A DNA stretch of 64,000 bases from assembly GCF_000020125.1 (NCBI RefSeq), contig NC_010681.1, positions 806,001-870,000 of the forward strand, in the 5' to 3' direction. The notes under the pieces are model-generated. The model saw only the letters and a list, made by a program, of their open reading frames with translations, was not told the DNA's origin and searched no databases. Positions 33,159-41,770 of the stretch are shown here, one piece after another (position 1 is the first letter of the stretch; every line of letters begins with the position of its first letter). A program made the translations under genes and the position numbers. The stretch is from Paraburkholderia phytofirmans PsJN (GTDB lineage Bacteria; Pseudomonadota; Gammaproteobacteria; Burkholderiales; Burkholderiaceae).

Positions 33159-33668
33159 TTACTGTTGGTACACGAGGTCGGCGCGGCGGTTTTGTGCCCA
33201 CGACGATTCGTCATGACCCGTAGCTTGCGGCTTTTCCTTGCCGAGGCTCACGGCTTCCATTTGCGAGTCCGTCACGCCCATCAGCGACAGCGAACGGCGC
33301 ACAGCTTCAGCACGCTTCTGGCCGAGTGCCAGGTTGTACTCGCTGGTGCCGCGTTCGTCGGTGTTGCCCTGGATCAGGACGTGGCGTTGCGGGTGGCTCT
33401 TCAGGTATTGCGCGTGTTGTTGCAGCAGCGATTGGTAGTCGTCCTTGACCGAGTAGCTGTCGAAGTCGAAGTAAATGCTGCGCTTGGCCAGCGGGCTGTT
33501 CGGATCGTTCAGCGGGTCGACGTTGACCGTCGCGACATCGTTCGGATTCGGCTGTGCCGAAACCGTACCACCCTTGTTAGCGTTTTCGTCGAGCTTGACG
33601 CCCGAGTGGCACGCGGCCAGTGCACCGACCATCAATACGGCAAAAGCGAAGCGAAGTTTGGACATCAT
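33159..33668 (-). CDS. pal: Peptidoglycan-associated lipoprotein Pal
   Basis: Pal anchors the outer membrane to peptidoglycan and is the target of TolB. The 169-residue product has a lipoprotein signal with lipobox LAAC (FAVLMVGALAACHSG), a short linker, and an OmpA-like domain: YFDFDSYSVKDDYQSLLQQH, LIQGNTDERGTSEYNLALGQ and the Arg-containing block KRAEAVRRSLSLMGV that contacts diaminopimelate. Length is typical. It lies 33 bp after tolB and 10 bp before cpoB. Confidence 0.97.
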   Translation of the reverse strand: MMSKLRFAFAVLMVGALAACHSGVKLDENANKGGTVSAQPNPNDVATVNVDPLNDPNSPLAKRSIYFDFDSYSVKDDYQSLLQQHAQYLKSHPQRHVLIQGNTDERGTSEYNLALGQKRAEAVRRSLSLMGVTDSQMEAVSLGKEKPQATGHDESSWAQNRRADLVYQQ

Positions 33669-33701
33669 TTTGATAACTCTCCTTGTGTTATTGCATCAAC
33701 G

Positions 33702-34994
33702 TTATTGCATAAACGGGCCCCAGGATGGCTCGCGTACGCTGCCACCCTGAACGGACAGGACCTGCCGAGTGCGACCGTCGGTCGATACTGCGGCCAACAC
33801 GCCACGGCCGTTCACCTGTGTGGCGTAAAGAATGTACTGACCGTTCGCCGCGAAACTCGGCGATTCGTCATGTGTCGTGTCCGTCAGGCCTGTGGCGGTG
33901 TTGCCTTGCAGGTCCTGGATGTAGAGCTTGAACCCGCCGCCGACGCGCGAGATATAAGCGAGCTGTTTGCCGTCCGGGCTCACGCGCGGGCTGGTGTTGT
34001 AGCTGCCCGTGAACGTGACGCGTTGCGCGGCGCCGGCGTTTTCACCTTGCGCCGACATCTTGTAGATTTGCGGCTGGCCGCCACGGTCGCTGGTGAAATA
34101 GATCGACTGGCCGTCGGGCGAGAAGCACGGTTCGGTGTCGATCGAGCTGCCTTGCGTGAGACGGCGCAGGCCGCTGCCGTCCGCATTGACGGCGAAAATC
34201 TGCGTGTTGCCGGTGCGCGAGAGCGCGACGGCCAGCGTGCGTCCGTCCGGCGACCACGCCGGCGCACTATTGTTGCCCTTCTGGTCCGAAACGACCACGC
34301 GGCGGCCCGTAGGCAGGTCGTGGATGTAGACGATCGGCTTCTTCTTTTCGAACGAAACGTAAGCGACCTTGGTGCCGTCAGGCGACCATGCCGGCGAGAT
34401 GATCGGCTCGGGGCTCGACAGCGCGATGTGCGCGTCCTGGCCGTCCGAATCGGAGATCTGCAGTTGATAACGGCCGCCCGTCTTGATGACGTACGACAGG
34501 CGCGTGGCGAACACGCCGCGGCCGCCCATCAGCTTCGCGTAGATGTAGTCCGCGACCTTGTGCGCGCTCATGCGCAGGCCGCTTTCCGGGCTCACCAGCA
34601 CGAGGCCGCCGAGGCTTTCGCCCTTGACGGTGTCGTACAGCTTGAAGCGCACTTCGTACTGGCCGTTCGGCAAGCGGTTCACGCTACCCGACACGAACGC
34701 GTTGGCGCCCTTGGCCTTCCAGCTGCCGAGGTCGACGGAATCCGTTTCGGCAACCGGCGTGGAGCCCGCGTCGATATTCGTGAATTTGCCGCTGCGTTGC
34801 AGATCCTGACGCACGATCGTGCTGACTTGCTGCGGCGAGTTCGCTTCGTTGGCGAAATTCGCCGTTGCGATCGGAAACTGGGTGGACCCGACGCCTGTCA
34901 CGAGGACGTTGAGTTGTGCGTGGGCGGCGCCGCCGACGGCGATCAGGCACGACGCTACAAGTGTCCGCAGGCCTAGCTTGGTCATCAAACTCAT
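33702..34994 (-). CDS. tolB: Tol-Pal translocation protein TolB
   Basis: TolB is the periplasmic beta-propeller that shuttles between TolA and Pal. The 430-residue product has a signal peptide ([11 protein letters not shown]), an N-terminal alpha/beta domain (about 25-165: [20 protein letters not shown]), and a six-bladed propeller with repeated [25 protein letters not shown] and [15 protein letters not shown] motifs. The frame extends further upstream, but MSLMTKLG at 34992-34994 is the family start. It follows tolA by 140 bp. Confidence 0.97.
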
Positions 34995-35134
34995 GCTGTA
35001 TGGATTCCCCAAAAACGGTTTTACTAACACTTCAAGACAGCAGACAGACCCGAAAAGAACTAATTCGTTCCCGAGCGCGCCCCGGTGGGCAGGGAGCAGA
35101 GTCTGCTGTCAACTGATTGTCAAACTACAGTGAA

Positions 35135-36169
35135 TCAACCGGCCGGGCGCAACGTAATCAGGAAGCTGGTCGGTGTCTTGCCATTGATGTCCAGAGGCAT
35201 CGGATCGGTACGCTGGACGGCGCGCAGTGCGGCATCGTCCCACGCAGCGTTGCCGCTGCTGCGCGAAATCGTGGCGCCCAGCAAGGTACCCGTCGGTGAG
35301 CAGCGTACGGAGACCACTGTCTCCAGGCCACTCGTTTCGCCGCCCCACGAAATATTCGGGCGCACGGCGCGACGCACCTTGTCCGCGTAGCCCGGCGATG
35401 CCGCCGTGCCACCCGAACCGCTGCCCGTGCCGCTCTTGCCAAGCCCGTCGCTGTTCGAACTGGTGCCCCCGGCCGAACCCTGCATCATCTGAGCGACGCG
35501 CGCGCGATGCTCGGCATCCGCCTTCTTTGCTTGCGCCGCGGCTTCGGCCTGAGCCTTGGCCTTCGCTGCCTTCTGCGCGTCGGCCTTCTTCTGCGCTTCA
35601 GCCTCGGCTTGCTTCTGCTGTTCCAGCTTCTGTTCCTGCTGCTGTTCCTTCAGTTGCTGCTGCTTCTGCTGCTCGGCCAATTGCTGTTGTTTCAGCTTGT
35701 CGGCCTGTTGTTGCTGTTGCTGCTGTTTCAGCTTGGCCGCCGCAGCTTTCTGCGCGGCGAGTTGTGCCGCCTGCTCGGCAGCCAGTTGCTGCTGACGCTT
35801 CGCCTCGGCTTCCTGTTGCGCCTGCAGCTTCTGCTGACGTTGCTGTTCAGCCAATTGCGCCTCGCGAGCCGCTTGCTGCTGTTGACGCTTCTTTTCCTGC
35901 AGCGCGATGTCTGCCTGGTCGTCGCGCACCGGCGGAGGAGGGGCCACAACCGGAGCGGGCGGCGGCGGAACGGGACGCGGGATCGCCGTATCCGGCACCT
36001 CGGTCCACAACTCCGCTTCCGCGCCTTCCGGGGTGCTGTTTTGCCACTGAATGCCGTGGTACAGGAAGAACCCGAGCAGCGCGTGCATCACCAGCGCGAA
36101 CGCAAAGGCTCGCCCGGTGCCGCGTTCACGCGGTGGCTGGAGCGGGTATTCGGAATTCTTGCGGATCAT
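35135..36169 (-). CDS. tolA: Tol system inner-membrane protein TolA
   Basis: TolA spans the periplasm and passes energy from TolQR to TolB and Pal. The 344-residue product has one N-terminal membrane helix (FAFALVMHALLGFFLYHGI), a proline-rich stretch (RPVPPPPAPVVAPPPP), a long Gln/Lys/Ala coiled-coil (about 85-230, with runs such as KQQQQQQQADKLKQQQ), and a C-terminal domain (about 255-344: VRRAVRPNISW, VVSVRCSPTGTLLGATISRS). Its ATG overlaps the tolR stop (ATGA). The repeated CAG/CTG-type codons of the coiled-coil give the DNA here a repetitive look. Confidence 0.94.
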   Translation of the reverse strand: MIRKNSEYPLQPPRERGTGRAFAFALVMHALLGFFLYHGIQWQNSTPEGAEAELWTEVPDTAIPRPVPPPPAPVVAPPPPVRDDQADIALQEKKRQQQQAAREAQLAEQQRQQKLQAQQEAEAKRQQQLAAEQAAQLAAQKAAAAKLKQQQQQQQADKLKQQQLAEQQKQQQLKEQQQEQKLEQQKQAEAEAQKKADAQKAAKAKAQAEAAAQAKKADAEHRARVAQMMQGSAGGTSSNSDGLGKSGTGSGSGGTAASPGYADKVRRAVRPNISWGGETSGLETVVSVRCSPTGTLLGATISRSSGNAAWDDAALRAVQRTDPMPLDINGKTPTSFLITLRPAG

Positions 36170-36612
36170 TGCGATTTGACGAGCAATCCAACGCGCTTGA
36201 CGCCGCGAGCTTTCAACTCGGACATCACGTTCATGACGACTTCGTACTTGACGGTCTTGTCGGCGGCGATCACGACCGGCTGATCAGGATGCGATTGCGC
36301 GCGATCGGCGATGAAGCCGTTCAGATCGGCTTTCGTCATGTTCTCCTGCTGTTGTGCGCCCGAGTCGTCCTTGTACTTGACGCTCATGTTACCGTCTGCG
36401 CGAATGTTCACGATCACGGGCGGCGTTTGCTGTTGCGGCGCGGCGCCGCCGACGGTCGGCAGATTGACGATCGACGGGGCCACGAGCGGCGCAGTCACCA
36501 TGAAGATCACGAGCAGCACGAGCATCACGTCGATGTAAGGCACGACGTTGATGTCGGCCATCGCGCGGCGCGAGCGGCTGCCGCGCATGCTGGAGGAGCG
36601 AGAGCCTGCCAT
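36166..36612 (-). CDS. tolR: Tol system protein TolR
   Basis: TolR is part of the TolQR proton-driven motor. The 148-residue product has one membrane helix, ADINVVPYIDVMLVLLVIFM, with the conserved proton-relay Asp in it, then a periplasmic ExbD-like domain (VIAADKTVKYEVVMNVMSEL, KRVGLLVK). The ATG at 36610-36612 gives the family length; an earlier frame to 36723 has no homology. It lies 10 bp after tolQ and its stop overlaps the tolA start by 4 bp. Confidence 0.96.
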   Translation of the reverse strand: MAGSRSSSMRGSRSRRAMADINVVPYIDVMLVLLVIFMVTAPLVAPSIVNLPTVGGAAPQQQTPPVIVNIRADGNMSVKYKDDSGAQQQENMTKADLNGFIADRAQSHPDQPVVIAADKTVKYEVVMNVMSELKARGVKRVGLLVKSQ

Positions 36613-36622
36613 CGTGGACTCC

Positions 36623-37300
36623 TTACTGTGCCTGACGCTGCAGGATGTTCGAGAATTCTTCGATGAAAGTCTCGAAGCGGATGGCCAGGCGGTCGATGTC
36701 GTGCGCGTAGCGGTTGTAGGCAACCACGGCCGGAATCGCGGCGAACAGACCGATGGCGGTGGCGGTCAGCGCTTCGGCAATACCCGGCGCGACGTTGGCC
36801 AGCGTGGCCTGCTGCACGTTGGCGAGGCCGCGGAACGCATTCATGATCCCCCACACCGTGCCGAACAGACCGATATATGGACTGACGGAGCCGACAGACG
36901 CGAGAAACGCCAGGTTGGCTTCGAGCACGTCCATTTCACGCTGGAACGCGGCACGCATGGCGCGCCGTGCGCCGTCGAGAATCGCGCCCGAATCGTTCAG
37001 ACGCTTTTCCTTGCCTTTCAGGAATTCGCGCATGCCGGACTCGAAAATCCGTTCCAGTGCGCCGATCGTGTGACGGTTGTTCGCGGCGCTCTGATACAGC
37101 GCCTGCAGGTCGCCACCCGACCAGAAATCGCGTTCGAAACGCTCAGTTTGCGCGCGCGCCCGGCGGATCGCAAACCACTTGCGGAAAATGAAAGTCCACG
37201 ACAGCAGCGACAACAGCAGCAGCAGGGCCATGACAGCCTGCGCCAGCAGGCTTGCGTTGAGTACGAGTGAAACGATCGACAGATCTTGTGTAGTGTTCAT
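36623..37300 (-). CDS. tolQ: Tol system protein TolQ
   Basis: TolQ forms the channel part of the TolQR motor, homologous to MotA and ExbB. The 225-residue product starts MNTTQDLSIVSLVLNASLLA, with three membrane helices (near 15-40, 130-155, 170-195) and the family region ANLAFLASVGSVSPYIGLFG followed by TVWGIMNAF. The frame is open to 37369, but homology begins at the ATG at 37298-37300. ybgC is 155 bp upstream, which leaves room for an internal promoter. Confidence 0.96.
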   Translation of the reverse strand: MNTTQDLSIVSLVLNASLLAQAVMALLLLLSLLSWTFIFRKWFAIRRARAQTERFERDFWSGGDLQALYQSAANNRHTIGALERIFESGMREFLKGKEKRLNDSGAILDGARRAMRAAFQREMDVLEANLAFLASVGSVSPYIGLFGTVWGIMNAFRGLANVQQATLANVAPGIAEALTATAIGLFAAIPAVVAYNRYAHDIDRLAIRFETFIEEFSNILQRQAQ

Positions 37301-37455
37301 AAAGGTTCGTTTTAACGTCCCGAAAGGGGGCGTCCGGCTGCAAGGCCGCTCGAAGCTTGCCGTGAGCAAAACGGAAGCATCGGCGATATTGCAAGCCGAA
37401 CCATGCTTTGTGTTGCTTGATCGTTACGAGTTCACTGACCCCGTAACAACGGCGT

Positions 37456-37926
37456 TCATTCGTTGTCCGTTGACACGCGGGGCTCGTTCACGTTCGGGCC
37501 GCGCCGCAAGGCGTCGAGAACCGGCGGAGGAATCGCGGCCGGCCGCAGCGCAATGCGGTCCACGCAGCCGACCCGGATGGAACCGGTAGCAAGCAGCGTG
37601 CCGTCCCGCCACGCCTCTTGTGCGAAATCGACCGAGGCTCTACCGAGCCGTTCGATCCGGCTGACCACGTTCACTACATCGTCGAGCCGGGCCGGCGCCC
37701 GATAATCGACCGCGGTGCTGCGGACGATGAAAATCGCGCCTGCTTCGTCCGCCAGCCGATTCTGGTCGACGCCGCACGCGCGCAGCCATTCGGTGCGCGC
37801 ACGTTCGAAAAACTTCAGGTAGTTCGCGTAAAACACGATGCCGCCGGCGTCGGTATCTTCGTAGTACACGCGGATTGGCCACGTGTAGCCGATTTCCGCG
37901 CCGGGCTGGCTGGTCGACATATTCAT
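37456..37926 (-). CDS. ybgC: Acyl-CoA thioesterase YbgC
   Basis: YbgC is a hotdog-fold thioesterase, first gene of most tol operons, and is thought to act on acyl-CoA or acyl-ACP in phospholipid metabolism. The 156-residue product has the catalytic block RVYYEDTDAGGIVFYANYLK, whose Asp is the active-site residue, then FFERARTEWLRACGV and the VVSRIERLGRASVDFAQEA strand. The ATG at 37924-37926 is favoured; another Met lies two codons later. The gene leads the ybgC-tolQ-tolR-tolA-tolB-pal-cpoB set. Confidence 0.93.
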   Translation of the reverse strand: MNMSTSQPGAEIGYTWPIRVYYEDTDAGGIVFYANYLKFFERARTEWLRACGVDQNRLADEAGAIFIVRSTAVDYRAPARLDDVVNVVSRIERLGRASVDFAQEAWRDGTLLATGSIRVGCVDRIALRPAAIPPPVLDALRRGPNVNEPRVSTDNE

Positions 37927-38005
37927 GCGGCGCATTTTACCGGAACGCACACCCCCAGGTCTGTTTCAAGATGTGCGCCCCGTCCGGCGGACTTCAGCCG
38001 GGATT

Positions 38006-38752
38006 TCAGCCGCGATGCACGGACAAGGCGGAGAACGATTGAGCCACCGGCATCAGTTCGATCGTGTTGATGTTGACGTGCGCGGGGCGCGTGGCGATCC
38101 AGTAGATCGAGTCGGCGATGTCGTCGGGCGTCAGCGGCTGCACGTTTTCGTACATTTTGCCGGCCTTCACGTCGTCGCCGCGAAATCGCACGTTCGAAAA
38201 CTCGGTGCCGCCGCACAGGCCGGGCTCGACGTTCGTCACCCGCAGCGCGGTGCCGGCCACATCGGCGCGCAGATTCAGGCTGAACTGATGCACGAACGCT
38301 TTGGTGGCCCCGTAGACGTTGCCGCCCGCGTAAGGCCAGCTGCCGGCGGCCGAGCCGAGATTGAAAATGTGGCCGCGATTGCGTTCCACCATGCCGGGCA
38401 GGAGCGCGTGCGTTACCTGAACGAGCCCCGTGCAGTTGGTCTCGATCATGGTGTTCCATTCGTCGAGACTCGCTTTCTGCGCCGGTTCGATGCCGAGCGC
38501 GAGGCCGGCATTGTTGACCAGCACGTCGATGGCGGCGAAGTCGGCCGGCAGCGAGGCCGGCACGGCTTCGACGGCGGCGCGGTCGCGCACGTCGAGCTCG
38601 TACGGCAGAAGCGCGTCGCCGAGTTCGTCGGCGAGCTCTTGCAGGCGGTCCTTGCGGCGAGCGGTGGCGACGACGCGATGGCCGCCTTTGACGAAGGCGC
38701 GAGCGATGGCGGCGCCGAATCCGGCGGACGCTCCGGTGACGAACACGATCAT
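38006..38752 (-). CDS. SDR-family NADP-dependent oxidoreductase (YdfG type)
   Basis: A short-chain dehydrogenase/reductase close to YdfG, which oxidises 3-hydroxy acids and serine-type substrates. The 248-residue product starts MIVFVTGASAGFGAAIARAF with the Gly-rich cofactor site, followed by ATARRKDRLQ, which suggests NADP preference, the NNAGLALG block, and the catalytic Ser and YxxxK in SAAGSWPYAGGNVYGATKAF. The reading frame stays open far upstream on this strand, but that part is antisense to glyA and nrdR and shows no homology. Its substrate in this organism is not known. Confidence 0.92.
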   Translation of the reverse strand: MIVFVTGASAGFGAAIARAFVKGGHRVVATARRKDRLQELADELGDALLPYELDVRDRAAVEAVPASLPADFAAIDVLVNNAGLALGIEPAQKASLDEWNTMIETNCTGLVQVTHALLPGMVERNRGHIFNLGSAAGSWPYAGGNVYGATKAFVHQFSLNLRADVAGTALRVTNVEPGLCGGTEFSNVRFRGDDVKAGKMYENVQPLTPDDIADSIYWIATRPAHVNINTIELMPVAQSFSALSVHRG

Positions 38753-38957
38753 TGCAGTGGTTCCCAGGCTGGTAAGAGAGAAAGGCCCCAAGCCTACTTC
38801 CATTGCGGCGCTGCGGCAAGGATGAACCAACCGCACGAGAGGCCGTGGCAGGGAGGCGACGCGAGTTTCCGTGGGATTTTCCTCAGACGGTTGTGCGCCG
38901 CATAAGAACGCTCTGCGGGCCGCCAGGCGGGCACCCGCGGGGGCGGCCGGAAGCCGG

Positions 38958-38986
38958 TTGCCTATTCGATCCGCTTCCAATAAACT
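38958..38986 (+). promoter_or_regulatory. Probable sigma-70 promoter of glyA
   Basis: TTGCCT at 38958-38963 and TAAACT at 38981-38986 are separated by 17 bases, the ideal spacing. A start site near 38993 would put the riboswitch at the very 5' end of the transcript. Confidence 0.65.
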
Positions 38987-38997
38987 AACGCGCTCAT

Positions 38998-39097
38998 CCC
39001 TGCGTGACTGGCGATAGAACCGGTTCAAACAACCGGATTCAAGGTGGAGCAACCCACCGTGAAGCGCAGGGTGCCGTTTTGCCGTTCGCCTGGGCAG
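38998..39097 (+). ncRNA. ZTP (ZMP/ZTP, pfl) riboswitch
   Basis: The pfl motif senses AICAR-phosphates (ZMP/ZTP), which build up when one-carbon folate is short, and switches on one-carbon and purine genes. The hallmark blocks are all present. CCCTGCG (38998-39004) pairs with CGCAGGG (39065-39071). TGCGTGACTGGCG follows, then a CCGGTT/AACCGG hairpin, GGTGG...CCACC (39043-39058), and the conserved GCCG...CGCCTGGGCA ending at 39096. GGCG of the first domain can pair with CGCC of the last, the expected pseudoknot. glyA starts about 170 bp downstream. No terminator-type expression platform is evident. Confidence 0.9.
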
Positions 39098-39268
39098 CCG
39101 TGATCCGCGCGCATCGATCTGCGCTGACGGTGGCTGTCCTGCCTCGCGTGTGCGGCGACTCTCCATCCGCCACGTCAGGGCTGGCCCAGCCGCCAGCAGC
39201 GCTGCGTACCCTCTACGCAAGATTCGGCGCACGATCCGGTCAACCTGAACACATTCAACGGAATCCGT

Positions 39269-40516
39269 ATGTTTGACAGAGCCCAAAGCACCATCGCCAA
39301 CGTCGATCCTGAACTCTGGAAGGTCATCGAGCAGGAAAACCGCCGTCAGGAAGAGCATATCGAACTGATCGCGTCGGAAAACTACACGAGCCCGGCTGTT
39401 ATGGCTGCGCAAGGCTCGCAACTCACGAACAAGTACGCTGAAGGGTATCCGGGCAAGCGCTATTACGGCGGCTGCGAATACGTCGACGTCGCCGAGCAGC
39501 TGGCGATCGACCGCGTCAAGCAACTGTTCGGCGCCGAAGCCGCGAACGTGCAGCCGAACTCCGGCTCGCAGGCCAACCAGGGCGTGTTCTTCGCCATGCT
39601 CAAGCCGGGCGACACGATCATGGGCATGAGCCTCGCGCACGGTGGCCACCTCACGCACGGTTCGCCGGTCAACATGTCGGGCAAGTGGTTCAACGTGGTC
39701 AGCTACGGTCTGAACGAAGCCGAAGACATCGACTACGACGCTGCGGAGAAGCTCGCTCAGGAACACAAGCCGAAGCTGATCGTGGCGGGCGCCTCCGCGT
39801 TCTCGCTGCGTATCGACTTCGAACGCATGTCGAAAATCGCGAAGTCGGTCGGCGCGTACTTCATGGTCGACATGGCGCATTACGCCGGTCTGATCGCCGC
39901 GGGCGTCTATCCGAACCCGGTGCCGCACGCCGATTTCGTCACCACCACCACGCACAAAAGCCTGCGTGGCCCGCGCGGCGGCGTGATCCTGATGAAGGCC
40001 GAGTTCGAAAAACAGATCAACTCGGCAATCTTCCCGGGCATTCAAGGTGGTCCGCTCATGCACGTGATCGCCGGCAAGGCCGTCGCGTTCAAGGAAGCCC
40101 TGTCGCCGGAATTCAAGGCCTATCAGCAGCAAGTCGTCGAAAACGCGCGCGTGCTGGCTGAGACGCTCGTCAAGCGCGGTTTGCGTATCGTGTCGGGCCG
40201 TACCGAAAGTCATGTGATGCTCGTCGACCTGCGCGCGAAGAAGATCACCGGCAAGGCTGCGGAAGCCGCGCTGGGCGCCGCGCACATCACCGTCAACAAG
40301 AACGCGATCCCGAACGATCCGGAAAAGCCGTTCGTGACGAGCGGCGTGCGCCTCGGCTCGCCGGCCATGACCACGCGCGGCTTCGGCGTCAAGGAAGCCG
40401 AGCAGGTGGGCAACCTGATCGCCGACGTGCTGGACAACCCGGAAGACGCCGCCACGATCGAACGTGTGCGCGGCCAGGTCGCTGAGCTGACCCAGCGCTT
40501 CCCGGTTTACCGCTAA
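39269..40516 (+). CDS. glyA: Serine hydroxymethyltransferase
   Basis: GlyA interconverts serine and glycine with PLP, charging tetrahydrofolate with a one-carbon unit. The 415-residue product starts [20 protein letters not shown] and has [38 protein letters not shown], and the PLP lysine in [14 protein letters not shown]. Length is normal. It lies behind a ZTP riboswitch, which fits its role in one-carbon supply, and is followed after 6 bp by nrdR. Confidence 0.98.
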
Positions 40517-40522
40517 GCCGCC

Positions 40523-41005
40523 ATGCATTGCCCCTTCTGCCGTCACGCCGATACGCAAGTGGTCGACTCGCGCGTATCCGAAGACGGCGCGACGATTCGC
40601 CGGCGCCGCCGCTGCCCGGCCTGCGACAAACGTTTCACGACGTATGAGCGGGTCGAGCTGGCGTTGCCGTCGGTCGTCAAGAAGGACGGTAGCCGCACTG
40701 AGTTCGACCGCCGCAAGATCGTCGCGAGCATGCAACTGGCGCTGCGCAAACGCCCAGTGGCAGCGGACGCGATCGACGCCGCGGTTGCCCGCATCGAGTA
40801 TCTGTTGCTCGGCAGCGGCGAGCGCGAAGTGCGCAGCGAGCGCCTCGGCGAACTCGTGATGAACGAATTGCGCGCGCTCGATACCATTGCCTACGTTCGT
40901 TTTGCTTCCGTCTACCGGCGCTTCGAAGACGTCTCCGAATTCGAAGACGTGATTGAAGAATTTCGCCGCGCCTCTTCTCCTCCCAAGCCTTCCCGCAAAC
41001 GCTGA
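40523..41005 (+). CDS. nrdR: Transcriptional repressor NrdR
   Basis: NrdR represses ribonucleotide reductase genes according to ATP/dATP levels. The 160-residue product starts [20 protein letters not shown] and continues to [15 protein letters not shown]: a zinc ribbon with two CxxC pairs. An ATP-cone follows ([20 protein letters not shown]). Length matches the family (about 150-160). It is 6 bp after glyA, so the pair is co-transcribed and likely shares the riboswitch. Confidence 0.96.
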
Positions 41006-41203
41006 ACGCAGTCGCATCGCGCGTTGCGTTTGAAGCGCCGATCTGTTTCGCGTTGTTTCGCGCATCCGTATCTCCCGCTGCCGTTATGGATTGTCGCGTG
41101 CATTTTTGCGCGGGATAGCGTCTGAGTGCCATCTGGCCGTTCGGCCGATTGTTGGTCGATTTGCAAGTCGCTAGATTGACTGCATTCTTCGAATCGATCA
41201 GGG

Positions 41204-41770
41204 ATGCAGATGAATCAGAATGCAGTCCGTCCGCCGCGATACCGCGGCTTCACGCTTGTCGAAACGCTGGCCGTTATTGCGTTGCTGGCCGTGGTCGCTG
41301 TAATGGCCACGCCGTCGTTCGTAGCGTGGCACGTGCGAGACCAGGTCGACGCCCGCGCGAAGGCGCTTGCCTCGACGCTCGCTTATGCGCGCAGTGAAGC
41401 GTTACGCCGAGGCGCGCGCGTCACCGTGTGCCGGACCGATGCCGCGCGCCATTGTCTCGCGGCGGGGCAGCCGTGCGGCAATGGCGTCGCTGACTGGTCG
41501 TGCGGCTGGGCCGTTCTGGCCGACCGTGGCGGCACGCTATCGCTCTTGCGCGCGCAACCTCTGCTTGCGGCCGTGCGTATCACCGGCACGCAGACGAATC
41601 TCACGTTCACGCCGCCGGCCGGACAATTGATCGGTACGTTTCGCAGTTTCGATATCGCGCCGCGTACACCGTCGAGGGTGACGCAAGGGGACAAGTGGCG
41701 ACGCTGCATTCACATTGCTGCGGGCGGCCGCGCGCGGGTCGTCGAGGGCGCATGCGGAGCAGCGTCATGA
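41204..41770 (+). CDS. fimT: Minor pilin of the FimT/GspH family
   Basis: A pseudopilin processed by prepilin peptidase and placed at the pilus tip or base. The 188-residue product has the type III signal RYRGFTLVETLAVIALLAVV, with Gly before the cleavage site, Glu at mature position 5, and a hydrophobic helix. The rest is GspH-like, with paired cysteines. It is the first gene of a five-gene set in which the next three junctions overlap as ATGA. A second Met two codons downstream is an alternative start. Confidence 0.85.
   Translation: MQMNQNAVRPPRYRGFTLVETLAVIALLAVVAVMATPSFVAWHVRDQVDARAKALASTLAYARSEALRRGARVTVCRTDAARHCLAAGQPCGNGVADWSCGWAVLADRGGTLSLLRAQPLLAAVRITGTQTNLTFTPPAGQLIGTFRSFDIAPRTPSRVTQGDKWRRCIHIAAGGRARVVEGACGAAS

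Follow-up and report, generated by a model that had tools for sequence, protein, structure and literature searches.

The glyA gene is one of the five genes most commonly found with the pfl/ZTP motif, a class that is expected to raise expression (PMC2864571), and a ZTP riboswitch before glyA has been described in Herbaspirillum seropedicae (PMC7011215); that the class and its link to glyA are established, as had been stated for this locus, is right and has long been known from these sources. In the C. beijerinckii pfl switch (PMC10907184) and in F. ulcerans (PMC7484762), helix P3 of the ligand-free aptamer is invaded by a downstream strand. Work of this kind has dealt with ZTP riboswitches that act through an intrinsic terminator, and the covariation model recently built for the class takes in only members that have 5–35 nt past the aptamer and an intrinsic terminator (PMC13273304).

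The riboswitch described here lies in the window, by which the whole 64 kb stretch of analysed DNA is meant, and shares its aptamer, its gene context and the expected ON direction with the glyA-associated RF01750 members. Its aptamer is no different from theirs, whereas the portions of those reports covered here do not take up nrdR as a second gene. The ligand-free invasion of P3 by a downstream strand is predicted in the window just as in C. beijerinckii and F. ulcerans; in contrast to the intrinsic-terminator ZTP switches, however, the window has 173 nt past the aptamer (from its GGGC to the glyA start), a hairpin loop of 32 nt and no U-run. The platform, and not the aptamer, which is an ordinary textbook case, is the interesting part of this riboswitch: a strand complementary to P3 is conserved in the lineage with no U-run behind it, and this anti-P3 strand is a new platform detail set against the long-known glyA link.

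Identity and distribution of the ZTP aptamer

The Rfam ZMP-ZTP model RF01750 matches upstream of glyA over its full length (model positions 1–86 of 86); the score is 63.5 bits, the gathering cut-off 39 and the E-value 5.8e-8 (Table 1). The covariance-model search that had been proposed as a check was thus run with a result well above the cut-off, and the complete ZTP riboswitch of the original prediction is borne out. The only further match above the cut-off in the Rfam scan of the 64 kb is a tRNA, and the whole 8.2 Mb genome holds this single ZTP match. Helices P1, P2 and P3 and the GGCG/CGCC partners that mark the class can all be laid out in the sequence; the closing stem is the perfect 7 bp helix that had been described, and both partner strands of the predicted pseudoknot were found in their expected places. 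The purine or one-carbon gene expected downstream is glyA, which follows the aptamer.

In the family, 151 of 200 genomes contain a ZTP match; 49 have none, and the 20 of these that are listed are each of at most 2.8 Mb. In the order, 12 of 150 genomes have a match, a sample that contains the genome of the window and partly overlaps with that of the family. All 12 order-level aptamers precede glyA, which marks the aptamer–glyA pair as a lineage trait, and the arrangement is kept in 89 fetched leaders. The 89-leader set and the 67-leader set used below consist of fetched leaders with both the aptamer pattern and a glyA start and cover part of the 151 matching genomes. In Paraburkholderia xenovorans LB400, the region of which is 91.7% identical to positions 33544–41540 of the window, the aptamer stretch is identical. 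As judged from the sequence, the presence of a complete ZTP aptamer before glyA–nrdR is virtually certain, and a decayed remnant that has lost ZMP binding is extremely improbable, since both the full-length match far above the cut-off and the frequency of matches in the family speak against it.

Table 1. Features of the glyA–nrdR locus in window coordinates.
Feature	Position	Strand	Basis or remark
Promoter-like hexamers	TTGCCT 38958–38963, TAAACT 38981–38986	+	Sequence; spacer 17 nt
ZMP/ZTP riboswitch aptamer	38994–39102	+	RF01750; helix limits from sequence
P1	CCCTGCG 38998–39004 / CGCAGGG 39065–39071	+	7 bp, perfect, from sequence
Pseudoknot partners	GGCG 39010–39013 / CGCC 39087–39090	+	Complementary in sequence; pairing predicted
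P2	39044–39059	+	Helix limits from sequence
P3	39079–39083 / 39093–39097	+	Helix limits from sequence
Shared strand GGGCAGCC	39092–39099	+	P3 3′ strand and flank; pairs with P3 5′ strand or anti-P3
Anti-P3 strand GGCTGTCC (predicted ligand-free state)	39132–39139	+	22-genus shuffle test, pairing in 27 relatives, RNAalifold
Possible helix B	GTCCTG 39136–39141 / CAGGGC 39176–39181 (span 39136–39181)	+	Would compete with anti-P3; unsupported
glyA ribosome-site region AACGGAA	39257–39263	+	AACGG could pair with aptamer CCGUU 39082–39086; conserved, not above shuffles
glyA, serine hydroxymethyltransferase, 415 aa	39269–40516	+	NCBIfam NF000586, 671.5 bits versus curated cut-off 335
glyA–nrdR gap GCCGCC, 6 nt	40517–40522	+	Sequence; without Shine–Dalgarno
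nrdR, repressor of ribonucleotide reductase genes, 160 aa	40523–41005	+	NCBIfam equivalog TIGR00244, 192.6 bits versus curated cut-off 124.65

Promoter and leader layout

The promoter-like hexamers upstream of the aptamer agree with the consensus at 8 of 12 positions and are missing from the mechanical scan because the scan needs nine. Of 71 related leaders, 69 have the pattern TTGC-N16–18-NANANT upstream of the aptamer, in accord with the σ70-type promoter with 17 bp spacing that had been placed directly upstream. The gene upstream of the leader is divergent and ydfG-like. An open frame within the leader (39004–39276) was dismissed as a gene because the leader lengths of relatives differ by non-multiples of three. 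Many leaders that have otherwise diverged retain the block CGGTCAACCTG (39236–39246 in the window) about 25 nt upstream of the start codon. Six glyA leaders of genera g3 and g24 (L056, L064, L065, L071, L078 and L079) share a platform of another kind, in which GGGAAGCAGGGTGCGC follows the aptamer and, in most of the six, CTTCCCC...GCGCGCCCTACCC stands farther downstream; in these genomes nrdR lies 130–162 nt behind glyA.

A downstream strand complementary to P3

The 8 nt strand GGCTGTCC, 32 nt downstream of the shared strand GGGCAGCC, is complementary to it. The original prediction had rightly called the platform unusual and free of a T-run; its key part, this anti-P3 strand, had gone unnamed. 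Over 22 genera, which are related and hence not 22 independent cases, with one hand-picked leader each, the mean complementarity score was 17.8 against 14.7 ± 0.47 for shuffled leaders and was reached by 0 of 300 shuffles, so that the complementarity of the downstream strand to P3 exceeds chance, as is expected of a P3 strand-exchange switch. The test of 9-mers comprised 21 genera, in which nine other aptamer 9-mers scored 12.0–14.3 against 17.6 for the anti-P3 target; the 22nd representative, L041, which scores below the Rfam cut-off, was added to the shuffle test. Taken singly, 21 of 67 leaders gave p ≤ 0.05, the window's own anti-P3 was borderline (p values of 0.05 and 0.043 in two tests) and no strong anti-P3 was found in the representatives of genera g3, g5, g7, g24 and g79. 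The sequence evidence for anti-P3 is weak for a single leader and strong when pooled over genera.

In an alignment of 27 close relatives picked by hand (without L003, L018 and L012, which were on the first list), 98.6% of the cells of the anti-P3 helix are paired, compared with 17–53% for slid versions of the two-helix structure, and the helix was recovered by RNAalifold too; one pair is broken in each of three relatives (L046, L008 and L073). The pair-keeping changes are C/T opposite G. No two-sided pair change was found in this alignment, and the observed covariation values were reached by 500 of 500 shuffles because the P3 side hardly varies; anti-P3 thus receives no support from covariation. 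Helix B, tried as a third switching state, was paired in 84% of cells, but 151 of 500 shuffles reached that pairing and it was rejected. Overall, we consider an exchange between P3 and anti-P3 to be likely.

Folding energies were calculated with either P3 or anti-P3 forced for 37 non-redundant leaders, drawn after removal of near-duplicates from 67 whose GlyA is at least 89% identical and which extend 100 nt or more past the aptamer. In these calculations, which are biased towards anti-P3 because the ligand and the pseudoknot were left out, anti-P3 was predicted to be favoured in 37 of 37 leaders when the RNA ended 12 nt past anti-P3 (mean −8.1 kcal/mol). With the full leader, the prediction went to anti-P3 in 29 of 37 (mean −3.3 kcal/mol) and, in the window's own, to P3 by 4.2 kcal/mol. 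The pair probabilities averaged over the 37 leaders were diffuse, with none above 0.60. The modelled energies fit a switching decision made during transcription.

Proposed mechanism and readout

In the explanation that we prefer as a whole, to which we give about an even chance, the RNA is an ON switch that works by anti-P3 exchange and early transcription end, likely with Rho. Without ZMP/ZTP, the anti-P3 strand is predicted to break P3, the anti-P3 hairpin being predicted from the energies to win during leader synthesis, before downstream sequence competes. With P3 broken, transcription would end early in the long leader, and ligand binding would lock P3 and allow transcription to read through. 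The ON direction itself is likely.

In the window no U-run stands behind the anti-P3 strand, and no U-run hairpin overlapping P3 and no terminator-like site between the aptamer and glyA was listed by the scan, which covers loops of 3–8 nt only; an intrinsic terminator behind the aptamer was set aside on this result. The lack of a U-run makes Rho the likeliest stop of transcription, and a Rho readout is put forward tentatively. Rho-linked riboswitches of E. coli have long leaders without an intrinsic terminator, and the action of Rho has been shown there; the window resembles them in its long terminator-free leader, for which we infer Rho. The C-rich signal is unremarkable, its C-over-G bubble being matched in 16% of 219 control stretches and in 15% of random ones. 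The mean bubble was 0.168 in 81 ZTP platforms versus 0.085 in 27 glyA leaders without the aptamer pattern, a contrast that is suggestive only, relatedness being uncontrolled. The anti-P3 hairpin might itself, independently of Rho, serve as a pause site or weak intrinsic terminator whose U-stretch is imperfect, as P3-invading intrinsic terminators are the kind that has been studied (PMC7484762, PMC13273304) and as the hairpin of genus g11 is compact, with a loop of 10–12 nt followed by U-richer sequence such as TGTCTATTGCTT; the window's hairpin, however, has its 32 nt loop and continues with TGCCTCGCG, and with the scan result for the window leader this makes such a terminator very unlikely.

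A translational ON switch, in which the 5′ strand of ligand-free P3 (CCGUU) covers the glyA ribosome site by pairing with AACGG (39257–39261), the other P3 strand being bound by anti-P3, draws on several conserved features. The CCGUU/AACGG helix emerged from RNAalifold unprompted and pairs in 98.5% of cells in the 27 leaders, and AACGG precedes the glyA start in 55 of the 89 aptamer-bearing leaders versus 2 of 27 without the aptamer (0 of the 13 of these within the family) and occurs at 10 of 225 control starts; in sister ZTP copies before LysE-type genes, moreover, the 3′ strand of P3 lies opposite the start codon. The helix shows no covariation in the 27 leaders, though, because both strands hardly vary, and it does not exceed shuffled leaders, its values being reached by 89 of 300 shuffles in 14 family genera and by 142 of 300 in all 22. 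The mean modelled exposure of the ribosome site was 0.455 in the P3 and anti-P3 states alike (37 leaders), with a higher predicted exposure with P3 in six leaders and a lower one in five. We therefore regard translational control of glyA as unlikely and retain early transcription end as the preferred readout. A weak Shine–Dalgarno sequence was discarded as a mark of control, glyA being average in this respect (median −3.5 in 69 leaders versus −3.4 in 225 control starts). In two leaders of genus g89 (L038 and L039), a complement of the P3 strand, CTGCC, lies immediately next to the ATG.

The glyA–nrdR pair

The 6 bp gap between glyA and nrdR is as had been described, and the nrdR start is preceded by TAAGCCGCC, without a Shine–Dalgarno sequence. 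The gap is at most 39 nt in 71 of the 80 leaders in which both genes were placed. A Shine–Dalgarno 4-mer precedes nrdR in 6 of these 71 and in 2 of 55 with a gap of at most 18 nt, as against 7 of 9 with gaps of 88–178 nt, and the close-spaced nrdR genes, poor in such sites, fit translational coupling to glyA, in which nrdR would be translated from the glyA message by ribosomes coming off glyA. The placing of nrdR under the same switch is supported by the conserved close spacing and the missing ribosome site of its own, while the sharing of a message remains predicted; through this predicted common message it is fairly likely that nrdR is included. The contrary view, that glyA is switched and nrdR relies mainly on a promoter of its own within glyA, gains from the insensitivity of the promoter scan, which missed the glyA promoter as well, and loses from the fact that no promoter-like site is listed in 38600–41400 and that 65 of the 71 close-spaced nrdR genes lack a Shine–Dalgarno 4-mer, which suits coupling to glyA; we consider it improbable.

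With nrdR on the glyA message, folate shortage would raise GlyA and, likely, NrdR too, so that the folate alarm would act directly on the control of DNA-precursor synthesis and would also damp dNTP synthesis via NrdR. In its full form, a single Burkholderiaceae folate-alarmone switch that sets GlyA and NrdR by terminator-free P3 exchange and a Rho readout, with nrdR reached only by way of glyA ribosomes, is doubtful. Within the papers covered, the literature searches found no report joining the ZTP riboswitch with nrdR and none joining NrdR, serine hydroxymethyltransferase and Burkholderia, and the words glyA and ZTP are absent from the main text of a B. cenocepacia TSS study. On the minus strand, a 1019-codon open frame (38006–41065) runs antisense to nrdR and glyA into the ydfG-like gene and is probably a shadow frame of GC-rich coding sequence.

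Sister ZTP copies

Eleven second ZTP copies were fetched from relatives, and a LysE-type transporter gene lies downstream of eight of them (L054:364–486, L060, L061 and L066–L070), an assignment made by Pfam PF01810 in three of three tested and by a common N-terminus in the other five. In the best case, the 3′ strand of P3, GGGCAUUGC, stands against the start-codon region GCAAUGCC; the helix between P3 and the start codon pairs in 87.5% of 64 cells, with 30–39% for slid versions, yet 205 of 500 shuffles reach this value. In these copies the 3′ strand of P3 faces the start codon, so the family probably has translational ZTP platforms as well. The parts of the literature covered by a search for ZTP riboswitches and LysE gave a match concerning TerC proteins only. 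The window's genome (L148, contig C1, approximately 1447928–1448554) carries a 78%-identical relative of the LysE-type gene, with no ZTP aptamer block in the 220 nt upstream. The remaining three second copies (L042, L048 and L072) precede folD, an expected ZTP gene.
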